DNA from: Chloroflexi bacterium HGW-Chloroflexi-8
GTDB lineage: Bacteria; Chloroflexota; Anaerolineae; Anaerolineales; Anaerolineaceae
Length of the DNA stretch: 34,417 bases
Direction: 5' to 3'
Assembly (NCBI GenBank): GCA_002841995.1
Contig: PHBS01000020.1
Coordinates: 1 to 34,417, forward strand
A model generated the notes under the pieces. The model was not told where the DNA came from and ran no database searches. It saw only the letters and a list, made by a program, of their open reading frames with translations. This document shows, piece after piece, positions 28,774 through 34,417 of this stretch; the first letter of the stretch is position 1, and every line of letters begins with the position of its first letter. Position numbers and translations under genes: made by a program.

Positions 28774-29583
28774 TTGAAACCTATTTTAAGATTATTGGCA
28801 ATATTTCCACACCCGGATGATGAATCTCTCGGGCTTGGGGGCACACTTGCTAAATACAGCGCTGAAGGAGTAGAAACTACTCTGATTTGTGCAACACGGG
28901 GTGAACGCGGCTGGACTGGTCCTCCGGAAAAGAACCCAGGTCTGGAAGGTTTGGGGAAAATCAGAGAAGCAGAGCTAAAATGTGCTGTCGCGCATCTTGG
29001 ACTCAAAGAAACAATTTTCCTGGATTATATTGATGGTGATGTGGATAAGGCAAATCCAGAAGAGATTATTTCAAAAATCACACATCAAATACGTAGAATT
29101 CAGCCGCATGTGGTGATTACATTTCCGTTAGATGGTAATTATGGACATCCGGATCACATAGCTATTTCGCAATTTACAAGTGCTGCTTTGGTGTATTCTG
29201 CGGACCCAGGTTTTGTTGACCCCTTCGACCTATCTCCATATCGAGTGCCGAAATACTATCATATGGTCGATTCAAAAAAAATGGTGGATGCTCTGCAAAA
29301 GATGATTGGTGGACTGAATATGGAGGTTGATGGTGTGATACGCAATCATTTCGGTTGGGAAGAATGGGCAATTACCACCAGGATTAATACAGGAGAATAT
29401 TTTAACACCCTTTGGAACGCAATACTTTGTCATCAATCGCAGTTAGCCGGGTTTGAAGGTTTCCTTGAATTGCCAGCGGAAAAACACAAAATTCTTTTTA
29501 GTGAAGGCACATTTATTCGAATTTACAGCTTTGTCAATGGGGGAAGAAAAATTGAAACAGACCTATTTGAAGGATTAAGGTAG
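28774..29583 (+). CDS. PIG-L/LmbE-family deacetylase
   Basis: 269 residues. The zinc-binding motif FPHPDDES is at residues 11-18 (His13, Asp16) and the third ligand is in GHPDH (125-128), both typical of LmbE-like N-acetylglucosaminyl deacetylases. Members deacetylate N-acetylglucosamine conjugates, for example in mycothiol or bacillithiol formation or GPI-type glycolipids. The conserved TRGERGW after the second strand is also present. The substrate cannot be assigned. The start is TTG after AAGGAAATCAAGTT, a slightly long spacing. It lies 94 bases after the fusion gene, and no thiol-biosynthesis partner is adjacent. Confidence 0.88.
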   Translation: MKPILRLLAIFPHPDDESLGLGGTLAKYSAEGVETTLICATRGERGWTGPPEKNPGLEGLGKIREAELKCAVAHLGLKETIFLDYIDGDVDKANPEEIISKITHQIRRIQPHVVITFPLDGNYGHPDHIAISQFTSAALVYSADPGFVDPFDLSPYRVPKYYHMVDSKKMVDALQKMIGGLNMEVDGVIRNHFGWEEWAITTRINTGEYFNTLWNAILCHQSQLAGFEGFLELPAEKHKILFSEGTFIRIYSFVNGGRKIETDLFEGLR

Positions 29584-29805
29584 AGTCAGGAAAATTTTAT
29601 TGATCAAAAAAGATCTATCATTTTTTAATTTTTTTTATCCGTAAACTGGGGATTCAAAACTCTGAAACTCTTTTTACGTTCGTTTTTAAATAAATAGAAT
29701 TTAGTTATTTTTCTAACCTAAAATTATTTAATCAACCACAAGATTTTCAAATCCAATCCTAAATAGCTATATAATTGAATATGGTTATAGGGATCAAAAG
29801 AAACC

Positions 29806-30315
29806 ATGGCAATCCTGAGAGCGATAAAATCAGATATTACTACACTCAAAGTGGATGCAATTGTCAATGCAGCCAATGAGTCTCTATTAGGTGGTGGTGG
29901 TGTAGATGGTGCAATTCATCGTGCAGCCGGACCTGAATTGTTACGGGCTTGTCGTCCTTTAGGAGGTTGTAAAACAGGAGAAGCCAAGATCACACCGGGA
30001 TTTAATTTGCCAGCTAAATATGTAATTCATACTGTAGGACCTGTGTGGCACGGTGGAAGTTTTGATGAAGCAGAACTATTAGCTTCCTGTTACCGTAGAT
30101 CACTGGAAATTGCACAGGAGAATATGGTATCTTCAATCGCTTTTCCATCTATTAGCACTGGTGTCTATGGTTACCCTATTCGTTTGGCCGCTCAAATCGC
30201 AGTTGATACTGTCCGATATTTTCCCGCGTATTCACAATCAATAGCTGAAATTATATTCTGTTGTTATTCGGAATATGATCTTCGTGTTTACAATATGCAG
30301 CTTGAATCGAAATAG
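29806..30315 (+). CDS. Macrodomain protein (ADP-ribose deacylase type)
   Basis: 169 residues, a single macrodomain. The MacroD-type motifs are complete: [20 protein letters not shown] (with the catalytic-region NAAN at 21-24), then [11 protein letters not shown], and the phosphate loop [10 protein letters not shown] (115-124). Such enzymes hydrolyse O-acetyl-ADP-ribose and remove ADP-ribose from acidic residues. The protein is cytoplasmic. The start codon follows GGGATCAAAAGAAACC, a weak ribosome site; TATAAT at 29770-29775 may be the -10 box. No sirtuin or ADP-ribosyltransferase is nearby. Confidence 0.9.
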
Positions 30316-30390
30316 CGTTTATTAGCCAACACATTTTTAAAAAGAAACTTTTTTGTTTTTCAATGATCCTGACTTTATATGGAGGAAAAA

Positions 30391-30912
30391 ATGGCCCATC
30401 CTTTAATTACTCAATTGCGTTTTACGCGTAGTGAATTCCATAGATCTGTAAAAAATGTAAGTGTTAAGGATGGCAAAACTCGAATTTTGCCAATGAATTG
30501 CCTTGGCTGGAATGTCGGACATCTCGCCTGGCAAGAGCAGCGATATTTTCTCTTTTTTCGACTGGGAAACTATTTATATCCAGAAATACAAGCAGAATTT
30601 GCTTTTGGTTCTCCTGCCAGTACGCCTTCTATTAAAGAAATGCTTGAAAAATGGACGAAAATCACCGAAGAAATTGATCCTTGGTTAGATACATTAACAA
30701 CAGCGATTCTTTCAAAACAAATTATTATTGATGGTAAAGAGTCTTCCAAAACTTATGGAAATCTTATTCAAAGAACAATTTACCATTATTGGTACCATCT
30801 CGGTGAGAATATGGCAATTCGCCAACAATTAGGACATAAAGATTTGCCAATCTTCGTCGGTAATATTGATTCCAATGCCCCATACATTCCAGAAAGTTCA
30901 ACAAGTCTTTGA
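30391..30912 (+). CDS. DinB-superfamily protein
   Basis: 173 residues, predicted four-helix bundle. Metal-ligand candidates are the His of NCLGWNVGHLAWQEQRYF in helix 2 and two His in RTIYHYWYHLGENMAIRQQL in helix 4, the usual three-His DinB/YfiT arrangement. Family members are metal-dependent thiol-S-transferases or stress-induced proteins of unknown activity. I chose the ATG at 30391 after GGAGGAAAAA; an ATG at 30379 would contain the ribosome site. The gene ends 31 bases before a strong bidirectional terminator. Confidence 0.82.
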   Translation: MAHPLITQLRFTRSEFHRSVKNVSVKDGKTRILPMNCLGWNVGHLAWQEQRYFLFFRLGNYLYPEIQAEFAFGSPASTPSIKEMLEKWTKITEEIDPWLDTLTTAILSKQIIIDGKESSKTYGNLIQRTIYHYWYHLGENMAIRQQLGHKDLPIFVGNIDSNAPYIPESSTSL

Positions 30913-30943
30913 ATCCTTAAATCAAATAACCGTGCAATCAATA

Positions 30944-30985
30944 AAAACAGGTATTGACCAAATTTTCAAGGTCAATACCTGTTTT
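30944..30985. terminator. Bidirectional intrinsic terminator
   Basis: AAAACAGGTATTGACC and GGTCAATACCTGTTTT form a perfect 16-bp stem with a 10-base loop. The A-run and T-run at the two ends serve both strands: the DinB-like gene (plus) and the 74-residue gene (minus) converge on it. Confidence 0.92.
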
Positions 30986-31002
30986 ACGTCGGTTATTCTG
31001 AC

Positions 31003-31227
31003 TTATTGAACTTTTTTATTGATTTCATCCAGTACAGATTGAACTTTTTCTTTTGTCAATCCTAGTTGAGCTGCCTGCGGCATTGCAAGTAACATGGTTA
31101 GTGTCATTCCTTTTGCCATTGCAATCATTGGATTTGCTGCCAATCCCGGAACATATTGTTCCAGAATTTTTTTCGCTTGTGGGTCATCCAATAAAGTGCC
31201 CAATGTCGTATCCAGTGTAAATTTCAT
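31003..31227 (-). CDS. Small conserved protein of unknown function
   Basis: 74 residues, all helical by eye: FTLDTTLGTLLDDPQAKKIL, then PGLAANPMIAMAKGMTLTML, then LGLTKEKVQSVLDEINKKV. There is no signal or membrane segment. From memory, similar short modules occur at the C-termini of some carbohydrate-active enzymes; I cannot verify this. The ATG follows AGGAGGAAAAT, a very strong ribosome site, so a real gene is likely. It is downstream of the two-membrane-segment protein on the same strand (104 bases) and ends at the shared terminator. Confidence 0.75.
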   Translation of the reverse strand: MKFTLDTTLGTLLDDPQAKKILEQYVPGLAANPMIAMAKGMTLTMLLAMPQAAQLGLTKEKVQSVLDEINKKVQ

Positions 31228-31290
31228 ATTTTCCTCCTGAGACTAAAACAATATCTTAAATATACATTCTGTAAATTTATTATAACAAAC

Positions 31291-31307
31291 AAGCATCTCA
31301 AATGCTT
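31291..31307 (-). terminator. Weak hairpin between two minus-strand genes
   Basis: AAGCAT-CTCAA-ATGCTT, a 6-bp stem; on the minus strand it is followed by GTTTGTT. It could attenuate transcription from the gene ending at 31332. Confidence 0.3.
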
Positions 31308-31331
31308 ATACATTCCAGAAACAGGCCATTA

Positions 31332-32258
31332 TTAATTTTCGGGCTCGTTAGAATCTTTTTTTACTTCAACTTTGTTGTCTTCCATTTCTACTTTTGCTGC
31401 TGCCATGGTTGTTGCGGTTCCATGGAATAATTCCAAACCCTGACTCAATATCACTACCTGAACCGCTAATAGCCAAAGGAAAAACAACGTCAAAATGGTA
31501 ACAGTGATATTAAGAACAGTGGGCAAATTATTTTTCATGCTGGTTAGCATAGTCTGCAAATTATCCATCGATGATTTAGATTCGCCAATCATAGATTTGT
31601 ATTCGCCCAGGCTTTTAGAAATCAATGATACACTCTCGGACATTGTCGATAAATTTGTTTGAATTGCATCCAAATTATTATCTGCTTTGTCTAAATTTGT
31701 AGACATATCATTAAATGTTTGGGGAAGATTTACTAAATTCTTAGCCAAATCTCCTAAAGATTCAGCTAACGGCTTTTCAGGAATCACAGGTTTTTCGGGT
31801 TGTACAAACATCATAGCCAGTAACGGATTCGTACTGGCAAGCATTTGAAAATTCTCAAATGATTTCATGGATGCTTCTAATACTTTCGCAGCTTCCTGGG
31901 CAGCTTTCAAAGAAGTAGTAGCATCCTCCATGGTTTGCGGAAGCGTATCGCCCATGACCGAATTAAGTTGGGTAAAAACAGGTTTGGTATCCTGCACCGT
32001 TAATGCTGTCGTTTCCAACATCGTAGAAAGAGCATCCACACTCGTTACTGTTGCACCCAGAGCTTCGCCGGTGATATCCATCACATCTTTACTGGTCGTA
32101 ATGCTATTATCCAAAGTCGCAATTGTGGAACTTAATGAACTTGTGATTTGTGGTTTAAATACCCAAATCGTAACCAGGCCAGCCAGACTCAGGATCAAAC
32201 CTAATACCCCTGCTATCATAACCAAAATTCCTAACAGACGTCGAATTGCTTTCATCAT
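31332..32258 (-). CDS. Two-membrane-segment protein with a long helical external domain
   Basis: 308 residues; no named family recognised. A first membrane segment (about 9-34) is followed by about 215 residues rich in Ser, Thr, Leu and Asn with spaced hydrophobic positions, consistent with long coiled-coil helices (for example MSTNLDKADNNLDAIQTNLS and MSESVSLISKSLGEYKSM), interrupted by a Pro-rich stretch (QPEKPVIPEKPL). A second membrane segment (about 252-275) leads to a charged tail (EMEDNKVEVKKDSNEPEN). The layout recalls chemoreceptor-like or MCE-associated proteins but lacks their motifs. Two ATG codons follow GAGGAGGG. A 12-bp inverted repeat lies 86 bases upstream. Confidence 0.75.
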   Translation of the reverse strand: MMKAIRRLLGILVMIAGVLGLILSLAGLVTIWVFKPQITSSLSSTIATLDNSITTSKDVMDITGEALGATVTSVDALSTMLETTALTVQDTKPVFTQLNSVMGDTLPQTMEDATTSLKAAQEAAKVLEASMKSFENFQMLASTNPLLAMMFVQPEKPVIPEKPLAESLGDLAKNLVNLPQTFNDMSTNLDKADNNLDAIQTNLSTMSESVSLISKSLGEYKSMIGESKSSMDNLQTMLTSMKNNLPTVLNITVTILTLFFLWLLAVQVVILSQGLELFHGTATTMAAAKVEMEDNKVEVKKDSNEPEN

Positions 32259-32343
32259 CCCTCCTCAAATTTACTTTTCATTCCATTAAGAATATTATAT
32301 AACTTTGGCTGCGCTTTGCAGCAAAATATAACGGTACTGTTGT

Positions 32344-32374
32344 AATCAATATTGGCACCATACCAATATTGATT
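32344..32374. promoter_or_regulatory. Perfect 12-bp inverted repeat
   Basis: AATCAATATTGG - CACCATA - CCAATATTGATT between the SDR stop and the two-segment membrane protein on the minus strand. There is no T-run on either side, so it may be an operator or a factor-dependent terminator rather than an intrinsic one. Confidence 0.5.
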
Positions 32375-32429
32375 AGTTAACAATATCAATTGAATCTTAC
32401 CAATTTGAACTCAATTCATTGGGATCTGC

Positions 32430-33305
32430 TTATAAATTTGACAACCGACTACTTTCGTTCCAAAGCTTTTGCCAGGTTTCGCGATTGTATGAATGTTTAT
32501 TGGATTTCACCTGGTGATTGGTTTCATCCCAATATCCACCCGAAATATCCTCCACAGCAGGATCCGCAGCCAGAAAGCAATAAGTTTGTGCCTGTTTTTC
32601 CGGTGTGATCGACATTTTTCGTTTAATATTATAAATTTTCTTCAACCATGTCGGTAAATGCGTCAATCTTTCATCTGGAATCGCCACATTCGTGACGCGA
32701 ATGCAATTCACTGTGATTCCAGTTCCTTTAAGTCGATCAGCAAGATCATAAGTGAACATAACTTGAGCAAGTTTTGAATGGTAATAAGCATGTTGGACAC
32801 TAAACTTACGTTCGCCATTAAGATTGTCAAATTCAATGTCCAGATTGGGATACATGACCAAACCCTTCGAAGCCACGTTGATAATTCGGCTGGGAGCGCT
32901 GCTTTTCATTAAATCTAAAAGGAGATGCGTCATCAGGAAAACGCCAATATGATTCGTAGCAAAAATCGTCTCCACACGATCCTCCGTCAATACAGGTGTT
33001 TTAAGATTTTGATCAAAATTTGCGGCATTATGAATTAAGACATCAAGTCTGGAGTGGGTAGATAAGAATTCAGCTACCCCTTCGCGAATCGATTGCTGAG
33101 AAGCCAGATCCATTTGCAATAATTCGACATTCGCATTTGCAGAAATATTTTGAATATCTTCCACAGCCTTTTTACCCCGTTCCTGTGAGCGACAGGCGAT
33201 TACTACTTTTGCACCCATTTCTGCCAATTGAATTGCAGCAGCTTTTCCAATCCCGGAATTTCCACCAGTAATTAAAACTGTTTTATTTTCAAGGTTATAT
33301 TTCAT
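32430..33305 (-). CDS. Short-chain dehydrogenase/reductase (retinol-dehydrogenase-like)
   Basis: 291 residues. The cofactor motif TGGNSGIG is at residues 13-20, and VIACRSQERGKKA after the second strand has the Arg that favours NADP(H). The Asn motif reads NAAN, and the catalytic residues are Ser146 (NVAS), Tyr174 and Lys178 (YYHSK). The overall pattern matches the retinol-dehydrogenase/WW-domain-oxidoreductase-like SDRs. The substrate is unknown. I chose the ATG at 33305 after AAAGGAGACGTTA; a further in-frame start at 33335 would add ten residues containing that site. It is divergent from the XRE gene. Confidence 0.9.
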   Translation of the reverse strand: MKYNLENKTVLITGGNSGIGKAAAIQLAEMGAKVVIACRSQERGKKAVEDIQNISANANVELLQMDLASQQSIREGVAEFLSTHSRLDVLIHNAANFDQNLKTPVLTEDRVETIFATNHIGVFLMTHLLLDLMKSSAPSRIINVASKGLVMYPNLDIEFDNLNGERKFSVQHAYYHSKLAQVMFTYDLADRLKGTGITVNCIRVTNVAIPDERLTHLPTWLKKIYNIKRKMSITPEKQAQTYCFLAADPAVEDISGGYWDETNHQVKSNKHSYNRETWQKLWNESSRLSNL

Positions 33306-33378
33306 TAACGTCTCCTTTACCGATACCTCGGTCATGACGATGTGTTCCCCAATCAGATTGTTTACGAATCCATTTATT

Positions 33379-33408
33379 AATATATCAATATTCGCCTGAT
33401 TATTTCAA
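33379..33408 (-). promoter_or_regulatory. Candidate promoter for the SDR gene
   Basis: On the minus strand TTGAAA (33408-33403) and TATATT (33384-33379) are separated by 18 bases, about 73 bases before the start codon. Confidence 0.45.
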
Positions 33409-33506
33409 ATGATTTCTTGTGCTTATTTGGATTCAGAGTATACAAAGTGAATTTCTCTCGGAAAAAATCGCCTTTTCAACCATCCTTCAAGTTTGAATCT
33501 TAAAAA

Positions 33507-33568
33507 ATGTAAAGCCTACTTGACATGTAAAGGTTACTTTACTATAATATGTACAGTTACCTTTACAT
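33507..33568 (+). promoter_or_regulatory. Consensus promoter with an operator array before the XRE gene
   Basis: TTGACA (33520-33525) and TATAAT (33543-33548) are both perfect with a 17-base spacer. The spacer holds the palindrome GTAAAG-N4-CTTTAC (33527-33542). The longer half-site ATGTAAAGGTTAC (33525-33537) recurs directly at 33507-33519 (ATGTAAAGCCTAC) and inverted at 33556-33568 (GTTACCTTTACAT, 12 of 13). A strong promoter embedded in three related half-sites indicates tight repression, most simply by the XRE protein itself. Confidence 0.75.
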
Positions 33569-33578
33569 TGGAGGATTT

Positions 33579-33797
33579 ATGAAGAATAACCTGGAAGCAT
33601 TACGGTCAAAACATGGATTGACTCAACAGGAGTTGGCTGACCGAGTAGAGGTTTCGCGGCAAACCATCATTTCGTTAGAAGGTGGCCGCTACAATCCCTC
33701 TATTCTGCTGGCATATCGTCTGGCACGATTATTTCAAATAACTATCGAAGAAATTTTTATTTATTCACCGGAGGAAAATGAAAATGAAAAACAGTAA
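33579..33797 (+). CDS. XRE/Cro-type regulator (YozG-like)
   Basis: 72 residues, essentially one helix-turn-helix domain: LRSKHGLTQQELADRVEVSR, then QTIISLEGGRYNPSILLAYR, and LARLFQITIEEIF. This is the small YozG-like group of stand-alone XRE regulators, often encoded with a membrane protein. The ATG follows TGGAGGATTT. An in-frame ATG at 33549 lies within the promoter and operator and is rejected as a start. The membrane-protein gene begins inside its last codons (14-base overlap), so the two are translationally linked. The upstream operator suggests autoregulation. Confidence 0.92.
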   Translation: MKNNLEALRSKHGLTQQELADRVEVSRQTIISLEGGRYNPSILLAYRLARLFQITIEEIFIYSPEENENEKQ

Positions 33798-34248
33798 AAA
33801 ATGGGTTGAAAAACGATTGAAATTTGGCTGGATAGCGATAATTTTAGGTGTAATTGTCAGTACTTATGGCGTTGTTAGTGAATTGATAATTTTTGGTGTC
33901 CCATTTGATTTTCGATTCATTACTGGTTTAGGAATTTTGTTAATTGGTGTTGGTATCGGAATCGTCGTTCGATATCGAGCAGCAGCAAAAGATGAGACAG
34001 CTGCAAAAAGAATTACCAATGAAGAACAAGATGAACGAACGGCAATGATTCGGGCAAAAGCAGGGAATCGAGCCTATTGGGTTTCTACAGTGCTGATTTA
34101 CACCGGATTAATGTGGGTGTCATTCATATCTAACGGATCACTCCCACCCATGAACGAGGATATTTTGTGGTACTATTTCGCCTTTGCAACCGTTTTGCCT
34201 TTTGCGGTTTATTTGTATAACATCATACATGATGAAAGATCTTCATAA
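33784..34248 (+). CDS. DUF2178-like membrane protein paired with the XRE regulator
   Basis: 154 residues. Four hydrophobic segments (about 14-33, 42-62, 96-113 and 124-144) surround a conserved cytoplasmic loop reading ITNEEQDERTAMIRAKAGNR, the DERT motif found in DUF2178-type proteins encoded next to small XRE regulators. The function is unknown. Of two ATG codons I prefer the one at 33784, nine bases after GGAGG; the ATG at 33778 is only three bases from it. The start lies within the XRE gene, a sign of translational coupling. Confidence 0.8.
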   Translation: MKNSKKWVEKRLKFGWIAIILGVIVSTYGVVSELIIFGVPFDFRFITGLGILLIGVGIGIVVRYRAAAKDETAAKRITNEEQDERTAMIRAKAGNRAYWVSTVLIYTGLMWVSFISNGSLPPMNEDILWYYFAFATVLPFAVYLYNIIHDERSS

Positions 34249-34270
34249 AATTGATTTTCATTAGAAACGT

Positions 34271-34312
34271 GCTAGCATGGGATTTCATAATAAGGAGAAA
34301 TCCCATGCTAGC
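34271..34312 (+). promoter_or_regulatory. 16-bp hairpin enclosing the SnoaL-like start codon
   Basis: GCTAGCATGGGATTTC (34271-34286) and GAAATCCCATGCTAGC (34297-34312) are perfect reverse complements around a 10-base loop, ATAATAAGGA. The Shine-Dalgarno AAGGAG straddles the loop and the 3' arm, and the ATG start (34305-34307) is paired inside the stem. In RNA this would block initiation unless opened. There is no T-run, which argues against a plain terminator. Confidence 0.7.
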
Positions 34313-34417
34313 TTTAATTACAAAATTCAACCTGGCTTTTAATCGTCACGATATCGACGCGATGATGGAAATGATGACTGAAGACTGTGTATTTGAAAAT
34401 ACATATCCCCCACCAGA
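34305..34417 (+). CDS. SnoaL/NTF2-like protein, 5' part only
   Basis: The window ends after 37 codons. The visible part reads MLALITKFNLAFNRHDIDAM and then MTEDCVFENTYPPP, the first helix and strand typical of SnoaL-like (nuclear transport factor 2 fold) proteins of the polyketide-cyclase or ketosteroid-isomerase type. The Asp/Cys/Phe pattern after the first helix fits the family, but the function is open. AAGGAG lies eight bases before the ATG, but both are inside a perfect hairpin, so translation is probably controlled. Confidence 0.75.
   Translation, partial: MLALITKFNLAFNRHDIDAMMEMMTEDCVFENTYPPP

Follow-up and report, generated by a model that had tools for sequence, protein, structure and literature searches.

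The start of a small enzyme-like gene at a contig end of Chloroflexi bacterium HGW-Chloroflexi-8 is covered by a real and perfect hairpin. As the stem was found in none of the examined relatives and stems of this kind are common in the genome, a role as a local boundary element is the most likely one, and a novel type of regulator is less so. More specifically, and more tentatively, it may form the boundary between two transcription units, serving as a weak terminator and as a lock on translation in read-through RNA, with the downstream SnoaL_2 gene being expressed from an internal start. The features of the window, by which the whole analysed stretch of 34,417 nucleotides is meant, that matter for this reading are the following:

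33520..33568, plus strand: promoter TTGACA-N17-TATAAT of the HTH/membrane-protein pair (12/12 match), with TGTAAAG/CTTTACA-like repeats
33579..33797, plus strand: HTH_3 regulator gene, 72 aa (Pfam HTH_3, E 1.2e-13)
33778..34248, plus strand: gene of a putative membrane protein, 156 aa (without a match in Pfam, and taken for a membrane protein on visual inspection)
34251..34256, plus strand: TTGATT, candidate -35 element for a SnoaL promoter (pattern match), which would place a transcript start at about 34285
34271..34286, plus strand: 5' arm of the perfect hairpin (sequence and hairpin scan), carrying an extended -10-like element, TGCTAGCAT (34270-34278)
34287..34296, plus strand: 10-nt loop with most of the Shine-Dalgarno sequence inside (sequence and fold)
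34292..34297, plus strand: Shine-Dalgarno sequence AAGGAG, 7 nt 5' of the ATG (sequence)
34297..34312, plus strand: 3' arm with the SnoaL ATG inside (sequence and fold)
34305..34417, plus strand: 5'-terminal 113 bases of the SnoaL_2 gene (Pfam SnoaL_2, E 1e-22), the rest of which lies on contig C169 up to L006:337
34313..34327, plus strand: weak T-rich tail, TTTAATTACAAAATT (U score 2.90, terminator score -2.3, which is just below 0)

The two arms, GCTAGCATGGGATTTC (34271-34286) and GAAATCCCATGCTAGC (34297-34312), are exact reverse complements that pair at all 16 positions, and they enclose the loop ATAATAAGGA of 10 nt (34287-34296). The SnoaL ATG (34305-34307) lies within the 3' arm, while five of the six bases of AAGGAG are in the loop and its final G is the base that closes the stem. 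A preliminary description of this DNA had reported just this arrangement, a perfect 16-bp hairpin over the ATG with AAGGAG at the loop edge, and pairs and coordinates are confirmed. It had also held the stem to be unlikely by chance, which was borne out by both controls: The region 34240-34340 folds with -29.4 kcal/mol, as opposed to -14.66 kcal/mol (sd 3.04) in 200 shuffles (z -4.85), with a predicted -26.9 kcal/mol for the stem by itself, and chance pairing is excluded for a 16-bp stem because the longest arm never exceeded 12 in 20 Markov sequences with the dinucleotide make-up of the window.

The host genome assembly has 3.95 Mb in 256 contigs, and the window is the end of contig C248, which cuts the SnoaL frame. 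An exact overlap of 99 bases inside the SnoaL gene (34319-34417, identical to C169:1-99) links it to another contig of the same genome, on which the frame stays open until its stop, giving 116 aa in total once the two are joined. This contig-end overlap adjoins the hairpin and resembles the remnant of an assembly-graph fork; a third copy of the 99 bases was not found in the genome. The N-terminus of the SnoaL protein, MLALITKFNLAFNRHD (34305-34350), is without the MSPxRMSKxE-like start of many homologs.

In predicted folds of RNAs with 5' ends at 34180, 34249 and 34266, the AUG has an unpaired probability of 0.00, and by this modelling an occlusion of the AUG in RNA with both arms is well supported. 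The Shine-Dalgarno sequence is predicted to be mostly unpaired in the loop when both arms are present. Without a complete 5' arm the computed occlusion is partially relieved. With 5' ends at 34279 or 34285, the first two AUG bases are unpaired with probabilities of 0.98/1.00 and 0.86/0.87, respectively, and for 5' ends between 34279 and 34285 these two bases are 0.80-1.00 unpaired and the third is paired. If transcription begins at 34285, GGA within the Shine-Dalgarno sequence is predicted to be largely paired (unpaired 0.05-0.26) and so is the G of the AUG (0.01), in a fold that is weaker.

A shorter transcript of this kind may arise from the pattern TTGATT-N16-TAGCAT, which was picked after the hairpin had been seen and which matches at four of six positions in the -35 element and at 8/12 in all, with a TG one base before the -10 element. 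A comparable site occurs in 132 of 23,594 random 60-mers and in 8 of the 678 60-mers that precede ORFs. The region 29500-34417 has 20 promoter-like sites, which is no excess over shuffles (17.3 +/- 4.1). We infer an internal promoter, read-through and termination, and the tentatively preferred reading would then work as follows: Read-through RNA from the HTH/membrane-protein operon would carry both arms, and the stem would weakly promote termination of this read-through. In RNA that passes the stem, the AUG would be buried and the Shine-Dalgarno sequence confined to a tight loop, so that little SnoaL protein would be made. SnoaL would be produced from its own transcript, the start of which would lie within the 5' arm or adjacent to it, at about 34285, with TGCTAGCAT as candidate extended -10 element, and a transcript of this type could not form the full stem. 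The preliminary description had mentioned termination of the upstream pair as an alternative and an untranscribed 5' arm as a finding that would speak against sequestration; the two, each a putative property of the site, fit better in combination than singly.

Judged by gene order, the HTH/membrane-protein pair is a conserved operon, as a same-direction HTH match adjoins the membrane-protein homolog in 21 of 23 loci, with many of the membrane-protein homologs being just 24-35% identical. At least two TGTAAAG/CTTTACA-type motifs are present upstream of 18 of the 21 HTH homologs with enough sequence, and a full TGTAAAG-N4-CTTTACA upstream of 13 of the 21 (manual count); these repeats are likely an autorepressor operator. 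Together with the 12/12 match of the promoter, the conserved motifs imply that the SnoaL gene lies downstream of a strong promoter that is probably repressed by its own product and is directed towards it.

The hairpin begins 22 nt 3' of the membrane-protein stop (34248), and this stable stem behind a gene end (-26.9 kcal/mol) is a feature of intrinsic terminators that is also seen at many other gene ends in the genome and the family. Unlike intrinsic terminators, it has a weak T tail and a score just below 0 in a d'Aubenton-type scheme, and it overlaps with the start of the next gene. By terminator score on the better strand it ranks 26th among 44 hairpins of the genome, and it is not among the hits of a terminator pattern scan, which allowed loops of at most 8 while the loop here has 10 nt. 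In the family, a perfect hairpin (arm of at least 9) follows within 60 nt of the stop of the homologous operon in 13 of 22 loci with enough sequence, including four of the six closest operon homologs and being absent in the other two. This is not far above the 23/63 at other ORF ends in those loci, a control set that includes operon genes; random 100-mers there gave 46/1,380. SnoaL and membrane-protein matches are both present in four other family genomes, three of which (G003, G004, G007) have the two genes on the same contig at a distance of 50-62 kb and the fourth (G005) on different contigs. Among the genomes with both matches, the two genes are thus neighbours here alone, and the hairpin therefore goes with this junction.

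Perfect hairpins are also frequent elsewhere in the genome. A census with mechanical, uncurated ORFs covered 1.71 of the 3.95 Mb in 122 stretches, namely the window, 6 kb of C169 and the initial part, no longer than 20 kb, of 120 contigs. It counted 96 perfect hairpins with an arm of at least 12 and a loop of 3-20, 16 of them with an arm of at least 16 and the longest with 21 bp. Hairpins mark gene ends in this genome, since perfect ones with an arm of at least 9 were found at 94 of 692 ORF ends in the sample versus 45 of 3,540 random 100-mers. Within the first 899,107 bases (0.89 Mb without the 8,869 N), 44 hairpins have an arm of at least 13 and a loop of at most 30. Of these, mechanical ORFs assign 36 to intergenic positions, four to stops that they touch, three to the inside of ORFs and one to an ORF start that it touches; the hairpin studied here was scored as intergenic because the SnoaL gene is cut by the contig end. 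A second perfect hairpin with 16-bp arms and a 10-nt loop lies inside the window at 30944-30985. It is flanked by A and T between convergent genes, scores 17.1 as minus-strand and -6.1 as plus-strand terminator, and is likely a terminator.

Hairpins over start codons are few in comparison. A filter for an SD-like motif together with a start codon in the 3' half, followed by at least 60 codons or an open contig end, was passed by three of the 96 hairpins, namely the one described here and those of L246 and L258, which both have TTG starts and frames that are not recognised. The hairpin at the SnoaL start is alone among the 96 in having AAGGAG and an ATG that opens a recognised gene. That the genome has a recurring class of hairpins at start codons was considered and is not supported by these three cases.

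Whether the stem belongs to the SnoaL gene as such can be judged from its homologs. Protein searches with SnoaL gave matches in 26 of 147 family genomes and in 68 of an even draw of 396 class genomes, the source genome being included in both counts and loci being taken from the best 30 of the latter, and a search of genome contigs contributed the best 80 of 152 relatives. With one DNA match added, these sets comprise 137 loci, or 131 distinct ones after removal of six duplicates. A perfect stem of at least 8 bp with a loop of 3-20, searched between -100 and +40 relative to the aligned first residue, lies over the aligned SnoaL start in none of the 131 distinct homologous loci, among which a few homologs (e.g. 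L023, L025 and L178) have long N-terminal extensions, so that their true starts may fall outside the span. Such a stem is present somewhere in the tested span in seven of the 131 loci, all seven having one at -97 to -68, and L180 has an extra 8-bp stem at -61 to -38 that only just reaches the start region under test. It follows that the hairpin is not a conserved switch of the SnoaL family. As the closest SnoaL homolog is about 63% identical, with some loci being distant (about 31-40%), this excludes conservation and not a species-private function. The earlier interpretation is supported in part, but the regulation that it proposed, through temperature, protein or antisense RNA, is unsupported by these loci, none of which keeps the stem, and relatives that keep the gene and not the stem, which the same description had named as evidence against its proposal, are exactly what was found.

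In its exact form, the core palindrome (12-bp arms, loop 4-16) is present in one of the 147 family genomes, which is the source genome itself, and a search with 34240-34417 in 61 genomes yielded, besides the source genome, a match in G060 alone, which begins at query base 87 and thus within the gene, beyond the hairpin. Apart from its own partner, the arm has no match in the genome with fewer than two mismatches and three with two. A repeat or mobile element of the REP or MITE type was dropped as an explanation in view of the lack of a close arm copy and of the core palindrome in all 146 other family genomes. A plasmid search with 33549-34417 returned 26 records, and the 20 listed matches cover the HTH gene alone (query at most 1-244) and end short of the hairpin. 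Rfam gave no match at the gathering score in 33300-34417; three matches below the threshold, two of them to microRNA models and one to a model of a CRISPR repeat, were taken as chance (best E 0.18).

Among the alternatives to a boundary hairpin, one is that the palindrome acts as DNA and binds a dimeric repressor at a SnoaL promoter with a central CATAAT as -10 element, RNA folding being a by-product. TAGAAA-N18-CATAAT scores 9/12, its -10 element (34286-34291) being at the centre of the hairpin, and the same genome has a start-codon palindrome at L195:3016-3059 (arms of 16, loop of 12, minus-strand TATAAT) on an AbiEi-type gene. AbiEi proteins repress through inverted repeats in promoters, as described in parts of PMC3985639 and PMC7319586, and according to such a part of PMC3985639, the perfect portion of the operator has 11 bp (23 bp with four mismatches), which is exceeded by the perfect 16-bp arms found here. 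The arm has no second close copy, and the TGTAAAG-N4-CTTTACA of the neighbouring HTH gene is absent from the hairpin. A start near 34298 would also leave the Shine-Dalgarno sequence untranscribed and the AUG mostly paired (unpaired 0.16-0.21, third base 0.01), all of which makes an operator fairly unlikely, yet a serious rival. Proteins of the SnoaL family are not known to bind DNA. At the L195 locus, TATAAT is found on the minus strand in the loops of two perfect palindromes: The one at L195:3016-3059 lies on the start of the AbiEi-type gene, the mRNA of which is possibly near-leaderless, and failed the SD filter, and the one at L195:2298-2340 precedes an ATPase_2/DUF234 gene.

A serious rival of similarly low probability is that the palindrome is young and functionless, having arisen for example by templated repair of a quasi-palindrome. 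Its restriction to one of 147 family genomes, the lack of a perfect stem at the 131 homologous starts, and an N-terminus that departs from the MSPxRMSKxE-like form of many homologs would agree with a recent origin, but 16 of 16 pairs with a Shine-Dalgarno sequence in the loop are hard to keep unselected unless the origin is very recent, and perfect stems on SD-bearing starts are few (3/96, one of them on a recognised gene).

An RNA switch regulated in trans, with the stem of a two-armed mRNA being opened by temperature, by a protein or by an antisense RNA, would fit the coverage of the AUG by the stem and the enclosure of the Shine-Dalgarno sequence in the loop, but it is rather improbable in view of the 131 homologous loci without a perfect stem over the start and of the Rfam result for 33300-34417. 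Furthermore, for an RNA thermometer, a stem of -26.9 kcal/mol with neither bulges nor mismatches would be very stable. A translation from the in-frame TTG at 34251, two bases past the upstream stop, with ribosomes crossing the hairpin and the ATG being internal, is highly improbable: The frame is open from there through the hairpin, but by eye no Shine-Dalgarno sequence is seen before the TTG, and the 18 added residues are unlike the N-termini of homologs. An assembly artefact near the contig break is very improbable: The contig does end 105 bases past the stem and C169 overlaps by 99 bases, but the overlap yields an unbroken SnoaL frame and similar hairpins occur in many contigs.

The preferred reading, a boundary hairpin with an internal start, has a known counterpart in phage T4. 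In gene e, and also in soc, 49 and I-TevI, a stem sequesters the Shine-Dalgarno sequence and/or the AUG in transcripts that are initiated upstream, and late promoters lie in the region that encodes the 5' strand, so that late RNA lacks the 5' part of the structure and is translated, as passages of PMC3014915 describe. Like in gene e, the SnoaL AUG is buried in a predicted stem in long transcripts, whereas the case here concerns a bacterial gene with a putative promoter of weak pattern, and the stem is found in none of the examined relatives, which are at most about 63% identical. The AbiEi-type promoter inverted repeats are another comparison, as a long palindrome over promoter and start is known from the same genome (L195).

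A protection from read-through is also known from the transposase starts of IS10 and Tn5, where transcripts from outside fold and hide the start. Unlike in these elements, no transposase was recognised among the ORFs read on either side of the hairpin. In its most far-reaching form, one palindrome of 42 bases would at the same time be the terminator of the upstream operon, a translational lock on read-through RNA and, within its 5' arm, the promoter of the next gene, and thus represent the gene e arrangement in a chromosomal bacterial gene, but that all three functions coincide here is unlikely.

The general weight of the finding is small, as it concerns one site, absent from the examined relatives, in an uncultured bacterium. 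If the boundary reading is true, a hairpin that hides a start codon is not necessarily a riboswitch, and it is the transcription start site that decides. For the organism, such a hairpin would then be a compact means of keeping neighbouring genes independent in a crowded genome.
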